DNA of 64,000 bases from an uncultured Cetobacterium sp. (GTDB taxonomy: Bacteria; Fusobacteriota; Fusobacteriia; Fusobacteriales; Fusobacteriaceae). The translations under genes were made by a program, and so were the position numbers. This document shows positions 56,971 to 59,820 of this stretch, piece by piece; positions within the stretch are counted from its first letter, which is position 1, and every line of letters starts with the position of its first letter. Location: contig NZ_CAMFHX010000004.1 of the NCBI RefSeq assembly GCF_945952365.1, forward strand, positions 1 to 64,000, in the 5' to 3' direction. The notes beneath the pieces are model-generated. The model saw only the letters and a program-made list of their open reading frames with translations, was not told where the DNA came from and ran no database searches.

Positions 56971-57270
56971 ATGCAAAGAGAAACTTATAAAACATTGTCA
57001 AAAGAAGAGGTTAAAACGCTTTTAAAAAATGAAAACTCAATACTTTTAGATGTTAGAACAGAGGAGGAGTATTGGGAAAATTCTTTAGAGGAAACAATTA
57101 ATATTCCACTTCATGAACTTCAAGATAGAGCTTTTGAATTGGATAAAAATAAAACATATATCACTTTTTGTAGAAGTGGAGTTCGTTCAAAAACAGCGGC
57201 TTTAATTCTATTAGAAGAGGGATTTCAAAGTATTTATAATTCAGAAGAGGGTATTTTAACTTGGAAATAA
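56971..57270 (+). CDS. Rhodanese-like domain protein
   Basis: This 99-residue single rhodanese domain has the CH2A-type start ILLDVRTEEEYWENSLEETINIPL and the active loop FCRSGVRSKTAA with Cys67 as the persulfide-carrying residue. It ends with the usual NSEEGILTWK (family GGxxxW). Such proteins shuttle sulfane sulfur; the partner is not evident. It follows flavodoxin by nine bases. Its end is five bases before the -35 of the putP leader promoter, with no terminator hairpin visible between. Confidence 0.88.
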   Translation: MQRETYKTLSKEEVKTLLKNENSILLDVRTEEEYWENSLEETINIPLHELQDRAFELDKNKTYITFCRSGVRSKTAALILLEEGFQSIYNSEEGILTWK

Positions 57271-57274
57271 AAAA

Positions 57275-57303
57275 TTGACAAATTTATTTTCATATGGTAG
57301 TAT
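57275..57303 (+). promoter_or_regulatory. Promoter of the putP leader
   Basis: A perfect TTGACA (57275-57280), 17 bases, then TAGTAT (57298-57303) with TGG before it (extended -10). Transcription should begin near 57310, leaving a leader of about 275 bases before putP. Confidence 0.8.
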
Positions 57304-57333
57304 AAATAAAATAAAAATTGCAGGAGAGTTCTA

Positions 57334-57393
57334 ATGAGAAAAAATCAAGTTATTTCTAATAATGTAAATAGAAAACCCATCCCCCCTAGATAG
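57334..57393 (+). CDS. Putative proline-codon leader peptide of putP
   Basis: A 19-codon reading frame begins at ATG 57334, with AGGAGA eight to thirteen bases upstream, and reads MRKNQVISNNVNRKPIPPR before TAG. Three of its last five codons are proline: CCC, CCC and CCT. CCC looks rare in this AT-rich window, where proline is mostly CCA or CCT. The frame lies about 25 bases after the predicted transcription start and 120 bases before a terminator, and the downstream gene is the proline symporter putP. This is the arrangement of amino-acid leader peptides that control attenuation. No protein function is expected. I see no close known homologue. Confidence 0.72.
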   Translation: MRKNQVISNNVNRKPIPPR

Positions 57394-57422
57394 GGATTTG
57401 TGTTTTAAGCATTAGTTTATGT

Positions 57423-57468
57423 TTAGATACAGATCCATTTTGTGTTACAAATTTGGGTCTGTATCTAA
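57423..57468 (+). promoter_or_regulatory. Long stable hairpin in the putP leader
   Basis: TTAGATACAGATCC (57423-57436) pairs with GGGTCTGTATCTAA (57455-57468), a 14-bp stem with one G-U, and an inner TTTGT/ACAAA stem. It lacks a U-tract, so it is not itself a terminator. Its 3' arm with the following GGGG (57462-57472) can instead pair with CCCCCTAGATA at 57382-57392, the proline codons and stop of the leader peptide (10 of 11 pairs). Confidence 0.75.
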
Positions 57469-57515
57469 GGGGAAATAACTTTTAAAAAAGATTATTTTAA
57501 TAGGATTCTTTTAAT

Positions 57516-57558
57516 GAGGGTCACTTAGGTACAGTTGTACTTAAGTGGCCCTCTTTTT
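57516..57558 (+). terminator. Intrinsic terminator (attenuator) before putP
   Basis: GAGGGTCACTTA (57516-57527) pairs with TAAGTGGCCCTC (57542-57553), 12 bp with one G-U, with an inner GTAC/GTAC stem and loop AGTT, followed by TTTTT. It ends 16 bases before the putP ribosome site and belongs to the putP leader transcript. Confidence 0.92.
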
Positions 57559-57585
57559 ATTTAAAAAAATTTCGGAGGAGAAAAA

Positions 57586-59019
57586 ATGATAGGAGTAGAA
57601 ACATTTATAACATTTGGAGCGTATTTAATATTTTTAATAGGAGTGGGAGTTTATTTTTATGGAAAAACCTCCAGTTCAGAGGATTATCTTATAGGAGGAA
57701 GAGGCGTAGGTAGTTGGGTAACTGCACTATCAGCACAAGCTAGTGATATGAGTGGATGGTTACTTATGGGATTACCTGGAGCAGTTTACCTTTCAGGATT
57801 TGGGGAGATTTGGGTTGTCGTTGGTTTAGCTATTGGAACTTATTTAAATTGGAAGTTTATAGCACCGAAGTTAAGGGTAGAAACAGAAATTGAGGATACA
57901 CTGACACTACCAACATTTTTAGAGAGAAAACTAAAAGATGAGAAGGGAACTATTAGAAAAATTTTAGCTGTAGGAACACTATTTTTCTTTACAATATATT
58001 CATCATCTGGATTAGTAGCAGCAGGAAAACTATTTGAATCGATACTTGGAATAGATTATAAAGTAGCGGTTGTAGTTGGAGCTGTAACTATAGTTGTGTA
58101 TACATTTATGGGTGGATATTTAGCATCGTGTTGGACGGACTTTTTCCAAGGGGCTTTAATGTTTATGGCAATAATAGCGGTTCCGGTTATGGCTTACTAT
58201 AAAGTAGGGGATTTAGAAACTGTAAAGCAAGGAATGGAGTTAAAGGGAATAACTTTTGATATATTTAAACAAGGTGGAAAGGATATCGGGATTATGGGTA
58301 TTTTATCATCTTTAGCTTGGGGATTGGGGTATTTTGGGCAACCACATATCTTAGTTAGATTTATGAGTATAAGTGATGTTAAAGAGTTAAAAAAATCTAG
58401 AAGAATAGCTATGATTTGGGTATTGATATCACTTGTTGGAGCTATAGCGATTGGACTTTTAGGTATTCCTTTATTTAAAGAGGTAAGTCAACTTGGAGGA
58501 GACGCAGAAAAAATATTTATATATATGATAAAAGAGTTATTTAATCCTTGGGTAGCTGGAATTTTATTAGCAGCAATATTATCTGCGATAATGTCTACAA
58601 TAGATTCTCAACTGTTGGTATCATCAACAACACTGACTGAAGATTTTTATAAATATATAAAAAAAGATGCAACAGATAAAGAGATTATGTTTGTAGGAAG
58701 AGTTTGTGTAGTTGTTATTGCATTATTAGCTCTATTATTTGCTCTTAATCAAAATGCTAAAGTGTTGTCGCTAGTTGCTTATGCTTGGGGAGGATTTGGA
58801 ACAATATTTGGACCTGCAATAATAGCTGTTTTATATTTAAAGGATGTAAGTGCAAAAAGTGTTTTATCAGGTATTTTAGTGGGGACATTTATATTTTTAA
58901 TTTGGAAAGTTATTGGTTTAGATGTTTATATGTATGAGTTACTACCTGGATTTATGAGTAATTTAATAACAGTTTATGTAGCTGAAAAAGTATTCTGCAA
59001 AAGAGTAATTGAAGCATAG
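57586..59019 (+). CDS. putP: Sodium/proline symporter
   Basis: PutP is a solute:sodium symporter that imports proline. The 477-residue protein has about 13 hydrophobic segments. Family features are YLIGGRGVGSWVTALSAQASDMSGWLLMGLPGA (residues about 34-66), with the conserved SAQASDMSGW sodium site, WKFIAPKLR, TLPTFLE, YTFMGGYLASCWTDFFQG, GYFGQPHILVRFM and LSAIMSTIDSQLLVSSTTL. The last two are typical for PutP among the SSS family. A GGAGGAG site precedes the ATG. Expression is probably controlled by the leader peptide and terminator upstream. No putA is adjacent. Confidence 0.94.
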   Translation: MIGVETFITFGAYLIFLIGVGVYFYGKTSSSEDYLIGGRGVGSWVTALSAQASDMSGWLLMGLPGAVYLSGFGEIWVVVGLAIGTYLNWKFIAPKLRVETEIEDTLTLPTFLERKLKDEKGTIRKILAVGTLFFFTIYSSSGLVAAGKLFESILGIDYKVAVVVGAVTIVVYTFMGGYLASCWTDFFQGALMFMAIIAVPVMAYYKVGDLETVKQGMELKGITFDIFKQGGKDIGIMGILSSLAWGLGYFGQPHILVRFMSISDVKELKKSRRIAMIWVLISLVGAIAIGLLGIPLFKEVSQLGGDAEKIFIYMIKELFNPWVAGILLAAILSAIMSTIDSQLLVSSTTLTEDFYKYIKKDATDKEIMFVGRVCVVVIALLALLFALNQNAKVLSLVAYAWGGFGTIFGPAIIAVLYLKDVSAKSVLSGILVGTFIFLIWKVIGLDVYMYELLPGFMSNLITVYVAEKVFCKRVIEA

Positions 59020-59608: not shown

Positions 59609-59637
59609 CTTTTCAAAATAAAATATTTGTAGTATAA
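59609..59637 (+). promoter_or_regulatory. Promoter of the cobalamin uptake operon
   Basis: TTTTCA (59609-59614), 17-base spacer, TATAAT (59632-59637). Transcription starts just before the riboswitch. The bases between ogt and here hold nothing else I recognise. Confidence 0.65.
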
Positions 59638-59639
59638 TA

Positions 59640-59820
59640 ATTTGGTATGGTTTTGAAATTAAAAGGGAATTAAGTGAAAATCTTAAACGGTCACGCCACT
59701 GTAAAATGGACGAAAATAGTGAAACCACTGGGAAACTGGGAAGGGCTATTGCTAGGATGAAGTTGAGTCAGGAGACCTGCCATAAAATTTAAATCTGCGA
59801 ATGACAGAGCGGGAGGATTA
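59640..59820 (+). ncRNA. Cobalamin riboswitch
   Basis: The leader contains the conserved cobalamin aptamer parts in order: AAAAGGGAA (59661-59669), GGTCACGCCACTGT (59689-59702), GGGAAACTGGGAAGGGC region (59730-59746) and a full B12 box, AGTCAGGAGACCTGCC (59766-59781). A short TCTG/CAGA hairpin lies just before GCGGGAGG, the ribosome site. With no terminator after the aptamer, control is probably by masking the ribosome site of the TonB-receptor gene. Confidence 0.95.

Follow-up and report, generated by a model that had tools for sequence, protein, structure and literature searches.

A predicted leader-peptide attenuator before putP in Fusobacteriota and its probable kinship with the trpB motif

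The 64,000-nucleotide stretch of DNA analysed here (the window) encodes a proline symporter, PutP, behind a leader that we predict to be a ribosome-mediated transcription attenuator, one that would set putP transcription according to the supply of prolyl-tRNA. We put the probability of this reading at about 0.88. The anatomy of the leader, its conservation in relatives, the covariation of its helices and the match between leader codons and downstream genes across amino acids are all directly observed. We further consider it probable that the orphan RNA class known as the trpB motif (RF04312) represents an exchangeable cassette of leader-peptide attenuation rather than a riboswitch, one in which the control codons act both as the sensor and as an arm of the switch, with a pairing partner that co-evolves with them. 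In one phylum this cassette would serve about nine amino acids, at genes that include those for importers and tRNA synthetases, and the proline leader of putP would be one version of it.

Results

Anatomy of the putP leader

The elements of the leader are listed in Table 1. A preliminary description of this region had named a TTGACA/TAGTAT promoter, a 19-codon frame with an AGGAGA ribosome site and two CCC codons near its end, a strong terminator, and putP as the downstream gene, and we found each of these where it had been placed. The frame contains one CCT in addition to the two CCC codons, for a total of three Pro codons. In the long ORFs of the window, CCC accounts for only 6 of 526 Pro codons (1.1%). 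The downstream gene matches TIGR02121 at equivalog level, its score exceeding the cut-off of 515.5 bits. Promoter matches of this type are by themselves not above chance in number (3 found, 4.4 expected), but a TTGAC[A/T] hexamer combined with a TA-rich -10 element (TAnnnT) recurs 5' of the leader in relatives. A rhodanese-like ORF (56971-57270) lies directly 5' of the leader promoter.

The intrinsic terminator (57516-57553) consists of 17 pairs closed by a loop of 4 and followed by TTTTT, and 16 nt separate its end from the putP ribosome site; 6 terminator-like sites were found, compared with 0.4 expected in shuffled sequence. The long hairpin of the preliminary description also exists, as the helix between R2 (57423-57436) and R3 (57455-57468), but it is only one among several competing helices.

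Table 1. Features of the putP leader and the downstream gene, in window coordinates.
Feature	Position	Strand	Remarks
Promoter TTGACA-17-TAGTAT	57275..57303	+	-35 at 57275-57280, -10 at 57298-57303, 17-nt spacer
Leader-ORF ribosome-binding site AGGAGAG	57322..57328	+	can pair, with the ORF start, to the R3-R4 spacer
Leader peptide ORF MRKNQVISNNVNRKPIPPR	57334..57393	+	ATG 57334, TAG 57391-57393, 19 codons
Control codons Pro-Ile-Pro-Pro, CCC ATC CCC CCT	57376..57387	+	first CCC kept in 22/22 leaders
R0, control-codon/stop region	57382..57392	+	pairs with R3 tail 57462-57472; pair in the window -13.8 kcal/mol
R1	57394..57408	+	pairs with R2; masked when a ribosome sits at the leader stop codon
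R2	57423..57436	+	pairs with R1 (ON) or R3 (OFF)
R3 plus tail	57455..57472	+	R3 57455-57468; antiterminator left arm; partners R2, R4 or R0
R3-R4 spacer	57472..57515	+	pairs with leader ribosome site and ORF start
R4, terminator left arm	57516..57534	+	57524-57534 (CTTAGGTACAG) pairs with R3 as antiterminator, -14.6 kcal/mol
R5 and U run, terminator right arm	57537..57558	+	R5 at 57537-57553
putP, sodium/proline symporter (putative regulated gene)	57586..59019	+	TIGR02121 608.5 bits, E 8.7e-183

When the window region was searched against Rfam, we obtained a cobalamin riboswitch and one sub-threshold chance match, and nothing at the leader. A T-box covariance model gave no match in the region at E values up to 1, and a comparison of the leader DNA with phage genomes gave no match. 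The cobalamin riboswitch (RF00174, 95.9 bits) is located at 59631-59798, where it precedes a TonB-dependent-receptor-like ORF (59827) and a periplasmic-binding-protein-like ORF (61804).

Conservation of the leader ORF and its proline codons

We compared the regions upstream of PutP orthologues in 61 genomes of the same family and 98 genomes of the phylum. An intact leader ORF with a ribosome site was found at 22 putP genes from six genera, and all of these ORFs encode P-x-[VIMP]-P near the stop codon. Their C-termini, read up to the stop, are QPIPPR, NPMVP, YPIVP, NPIVP, SPIMP, NPTVPRVDLH and NPRVPKMGLYI; only the Pro codons are conserved, and the remainder of the peptide varies between genera. 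The first of these codons is CCC throughout, and the distance from it to the start of R1 is 15-18 nt (17 nt in 19 of the 22 leaders). The preliminary description had named beforehand, among the observations that would count against it, a failure of relatives to conserve either the small frame or the Pro codons in it. Both are kept in 22/22 leaders, at a near-fixed distance from the RNA switch.

Some putP genes have no such leader, among them those of G040, G041 and G043, of genera g8 and g9 and of the f4 family, which indicates that the leader does not merely travel with putP. Because leaders from within a single genus do not count as independent, the argument rests on the six genera with Pro leaders and on the exchange of codons across amino acids described below. 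The Pro codons are few and mostly non-adjacent, unlike the runs found in His or Asn leaders. Ribosomes stall at adjacent prolines even with ample proline, which may be a reason to avoid runs of Pro.

In genera g5 and g13 we observed a second small ORF between the attenuator and putP, with a single Pro codon, CCC or CCG. Examples (L016, L017, L018, L019, L020 and L021; L014 and L015) begin or read MIKVPR, MLKVPR, MKLIKVPG, KFPER and KEIPLG. This second ORF possibly adds translational control to the attenuator.

Four mutually exclusive helices

Four helices are conserved among the leaders: R1:R2, R2:R3, R3:R4 and R4:R5, the last being the terminator. As each helix excludes its neighbor along this chain, R1:R2 goes together with R3:R4 (readthrough), and R2:R3 goes together with R4:R5 (termination). 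The preliminary description had proposed covariation of the hairpins as a check, and the helices do covary among the leaders of relatives. In an alignment of 15 representatives, R1:R2 is paired in 95.0% of cells and R2:R3 in 93.2%, compared with 23-52% and 16-45%, respectively, in controls in which the arms were slid; in each helix, 4 pairs were changed on both sides. A broader alignment of 35 leaders contained 51 doubly changed cells in R1:R2, as opposed to 15.0 in shuffles.

Duplex energies point in the same direction, with cognate arms outperforming shuffled arms for all four helices. The weakest is R3:R4, for which the cognate mean was -10.82 kcal/mol, against -5.54 for shuffled arms and -8.96 for arms permuted between species (1/2000). 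In the closely related G030 and G033 this helix is weak (-5.2), no better than shuffled. Altogether, the Pro leaders have a strong terminator in all cases and a competing antiterminator in nearly all.

Proposed mechanism and folding with masked ribosomes

From this arrangement we infer a ribosome stall, a response to proline and its direction. When proline is short, a ribosome would stall on the first conserved CCC (57376-57378). The front edge of the stalled ribosome, about 15 nt beyond the P site, would end before R1, leaving R0 covered and R1 free. R1:R2 could then form and R3 could pair with R4, which would block the terminator and allow putP to be transcribed. When proline is plentiful, the ribosome would reach the stop codon and cover R0 and most of R1; R2:R3 would form, followed by the R4:R5 terminator, and transcription would end. 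On a leader without a ribosome, R0 would pair with the R3 tail (a pairing that leaves room for R1:R2 within it) and the ribosome site would pair with the spacer. Since both of these helices keep R3 off R4, an untranslated leader should also terminate.

We compared ribosome positions in silico by masking the covered nucleotides and folding the leader as far as the 3' end of R4. In 15/15 leaders, a ribosome with its A site at the first Pro codon made the antiterminator cheaper than did a ribosome at the stop codon. When a queue of upstream ribosomes was also masked in the window, the antiterminator cost 0.1 kcal/mol at the first Pro codon, 3.8 at the stop codon and 7.2 with no ribosome. Queue-masked folding gave clearly the right direction in 12 of the 15 leaders, two near ties, and one reversal (G012). 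In equilibrium folding with one ribosome, R2:R3 is still favored in most leaders of the window's genus, which means that kinetics or queued ribosomes must matter there. At the level of sequence, the kept frame and Pro codons, the covarying helices and the match of codons to genes support the earlier proposal that the ribosome would read proline supply in this leader and set putP transcription.

The control codons and the ribosome site as pairing arms

The control codons double as a pairing arm, and the R3 tail changes along with them. Across 60 non-redundant leaders, the mean R0:R3 tail energy was -11.04 kcal/mol for cognate partners and -7.48 for permuted ones (sd 0.36, 0/5000); partners taken from leaders for another amino acid gave -5.93, and shuffled partners gave -5.45 kcal/mol. 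In the window, CCCC-UAGAUA pairs with UAUCUA-A-GGGG. The corresponding pairings are CAUCAUAGAUA with UAUCUAUGAUG in His leaders, ACCAC with GUGG in Thr leaders, and GAUGCUUUGG with CCAAACAUC in one Met leader. The R0:R3 tail pairing is clear in His, Pro, Thr and most Met leaders, and weak or absent in Trp and Asn leaders. A local R0:R1 hairpin, considered as an alternative protector helix, rarely beat shuffled sequence, and the R0:R3 tail pairing is far better supported.

A second pairing joins the 5' end of the leader to sequence farther downstream. In ten Pro leaders, the ribosome site and ORF start paired with the R3-R4 spacer at -19.75 kcal/mol for cognate partners and -10.54 for permuted ones (0/5000); in the window, for instance, GAAAUAACUU at 57472-57481 pairs with 57347-57356. 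The values for 60 leaders of all classes were -14.23 and -10.27 (0/5000), with the Pro, His and Thr/Ile leaders driving the signal. The preliminary description had proposed the attenuator logic that these data support, but had missed the control-codon arm, the downstream pairing of the 5' end and the overlap with the trpB motif.

The same scaffold carries codons for other amino acids

We trained a covariance model on Pro leaders only and searched 98 genomes with it. The model recovered every training leader and about 40 further loci. Among these, leaders encoding HHHH(H)R precede the gene for a His-type ABC transporter binding protein and hisZ, leaders with NNNNN or NNNNNN precede asnA, and leaders with YYYYY precede tyrS. 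A broader covariance model added leaders from outside its own training set. In these, the gene for aspartate-semialdehyde dehydrogenase (asd) is preceded by TTTIIIM or TTTTIIMI, thrS by TTTTLT, O-acetylhomoserine sulfhydrylase and metN by MMMM, an NSS-type symporter by WWW, DAHP synthase by WYFYYYF, and an AGCS-type symporter by YYYYYLT. A leader ORF with a ribosome site was present at 78 of the 80 loci inspected. NCBIfam supports the gene names of most representatives, with hisZ and MetN scoring below their cut-offs.

Codon identity tracks the function of the downstream gene while the scaffold remains constant. Because this is predicted neither by an arrest peptide, nor by a riboswitch, nor by a plain terminator, classic attenuation is the best explanation.

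The window's own genome contains further leaders of this kind. One, a MSQLFVNLNTLHHHHRY leader (L223, G000:C5:40581-40669), precedes the gene for a His-type ABC binding protein, for which NCBIfam gives no settled assignment at the threshold used. A third leader, MKNIAIKEIKFNNVLLLLADLL (L356, G000:C28:13793-13896), precedes an NSS-type symporter whose substrate is probably leucine. Elsewhere, a Thr/Ile/Met leader before aspartate-semialdehyde dehydrogenase (L248) has downstream of it an element that resembles a glycine riboswitch (RF03166, 95.3 bits, cut-off 110); the two lie at 361-452 and 737-885, in an apparent tandem control. Two Trp leaders (L310 and L296), ending in WQSHWI or YWQSH, precede an ABC binding protein judged by eye to resemble TrpX.

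Overlap with the trpB motif

Over 900 representatives of the trpB motif have been reported from Firmicutes and Fusobacteria, located upstream of varying genes, most often that of an amino-acid ABC transporter (Narunsky et al. 2024, PMC11109978). This range is consistent with the phylum name used here. In alignments from relatives, the motif's P1, whose right shoulder contains the antiterminator, corresponds to R2:R3, and its P2 corresponds to the R4:R5 terminator; no other part of the scaffold is covered. The motif was published as a riboswitch candidate without a leader ORF or R0 and R1 (PMC11109978); the leaders described here have both.

The RF04312 gathering cut-off of 59 bits was reached in none of the 98 Fusobacteriota genomes; putP leaders scored 32-45 bits, and the window's own putP leader gave no RF04312 match even at E values up to 5, and was likewise absent from the genome-wide matches at E values up to 0.01. 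The sub-cut-off matches in the phylum largely coincide with the leaders described here, and weak matches are often plain terminators (about 5 of the 11 inspected were real leaders). We also inspected RF04312 matches in the order of Clostridium ganghwense and in Tepidibacter (L314, L315, L319 and L327-L355). Nearly all of these have a leader ORF that ends just 5' of the motif. By gene names assigned by eye, leaders with HHH precede hisZ and hisS, those with FFFSFFR, YYYNYYR and LLLL precede NSS-type symporters, and aromatic leaders precede BrnQ-like carriers and ABC transporters. The presence of leader ORFs at these matches suggests that the motif is probably the 3' half of a leader-peptide attenuator family.

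Discussion

Alternative explanations

Several other explanations could account for parts of these data. The P-x-V-P or PIPP peptide might itself stall the ribosome, for example by poly-proline stalling that EF-P relieves or in response to a sensed small molecule, with scarce prolyl-tRNA playing no role. The conserved P-x-[VIMP]-P spacing, the often hydrophobic residues at the x positions and the occurrence of PIPP in the window's genus would all fit such nascent-peptide arrest. However, the conserved peptide positions are Pro codons only, the base pairing of the codons accounts for part of the x-x conservation, and the His, Asn, Tyr, Thr, Met and Trp runs that match the downstream genes are something an arrest peptide does not predict; we regard arrest as highly improbable. 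The exchange of codons also bears on the idea that the hairpin and terminator are the aptamer and expression platform of a metabolite riboswitch, as proposed for the trpB motif. RF04312 does match, at 32-52 bits, R2:R3 and the terminator of several leaders, before putP and elsewhere, and its authors published it in 2024 as a strong riboswitch candidate, while they could not rule out a classic attenuator (PMC11109978). Against a riboswitch, the arms covary freely with no aptamer-like conserved core, and the downstream genes concern many amino acids, with the upstream codons changing along with them. A riboswitch here seems to us barely credible.

Alternatively, the element could be an unregulated insulator, the terminator of the upstream rhodanese/flavodoxin operon, with an incidental ORF. 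The leader promoter does begin right after the stop of the upstream ORF (57270), but it lies 5' of the leader rather than 3' of the terminator, and the ORF, Pro codons, switch arms and spacing are kept where the upstream gene differs (G007 and G048), so that an insulator is hardly to be believed. Finally, control might act at translation, through coupling or reinitiation on putP rather than through termination. The g5 and g13 relatives with their second, one-Pro small ORF between the terminator and putP would be in keeping with this, but the terminator is strong in all leaders, an antiterminator is present in nearly all, and 192 nt separate the leader stop from the putP start in the window. 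We consider translational control the least probable of the four, and ribosome-mediated attenuation of transcription as the preferred reading.

Relation to known attenuators

Amino-acid attenuation is a textbook mechanism that has been described mainly in Proteobacteria and Actinobacteria. The his, thr and trp attenuators of E. coli combine a leader ORF with control codons, mutually exclusive RNA arms, and an antiterminator that competes with an intrinsic terminator, and the Pro leader shares its control codons, exclusive arms and antiterminator-terminator pair with them. The E. coli his leader, which corresponds to RF00514, likewise has six arms. RF00514 found no match among the Pro leaders, and one Fusobacteriota hisZ leader scored 34.5 bits, below the cut-off of 49. 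To our knowledge, pairing of the control codons with the R3 tail combined with pairing of the ribosome site with the spacer is a pattern not known from E. coli his.

Pro codons in short ORFs sense prolyl-tRNA in the leaders of Salmonella mgtP (mgtCBR) and mgtA, where low proline raises readthrough; in mgtP the three Pro codons are consecutive, and ATP is a further signal for the mgtCBR leader (PMC3641672). Those leaders control genes for Mg2+ transport and virulence (PMC3641672), whereas the target predicted here is a proline importer. A His leader before hisZ and hisS has been reported in bacilli, outside Proteobacteria and Actinobacteria (Naville and Gautheret 2010, PMC2965389), and the Clostridial hisZ and hisS leaders fit that report. 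In the parts of it drawn on here, the bacilli leader concerns a single amino acid in Bacilli, with no shared multi-amino-acid scaffold described (PMC2965389). A search of mostly non-subscription literature, a weak negative by its nature, found no report of leader-peptide attenuation in Fusobacteria and none of attenuation of putP by a Pro leader.

Implications

On these data, a single scaffold seems to serve numerous genes for amino-acid supply in a phylum for which we found no such report. They give the orphan RNA class RF04312 a concrete candidate function, and they add to the known attenuators a predicted proline attenuator that would control an importer. Control codons that double as a switch arm represent a constraint that would shape the choice of codons in the leader. 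For uncharacterised transporters, the leader codons would also tell which amino acid is sensed, and the same may hold for the Clostridial and Tepidibacter transporters, whose sensed amino acid may be readable from the codons of their leaders.
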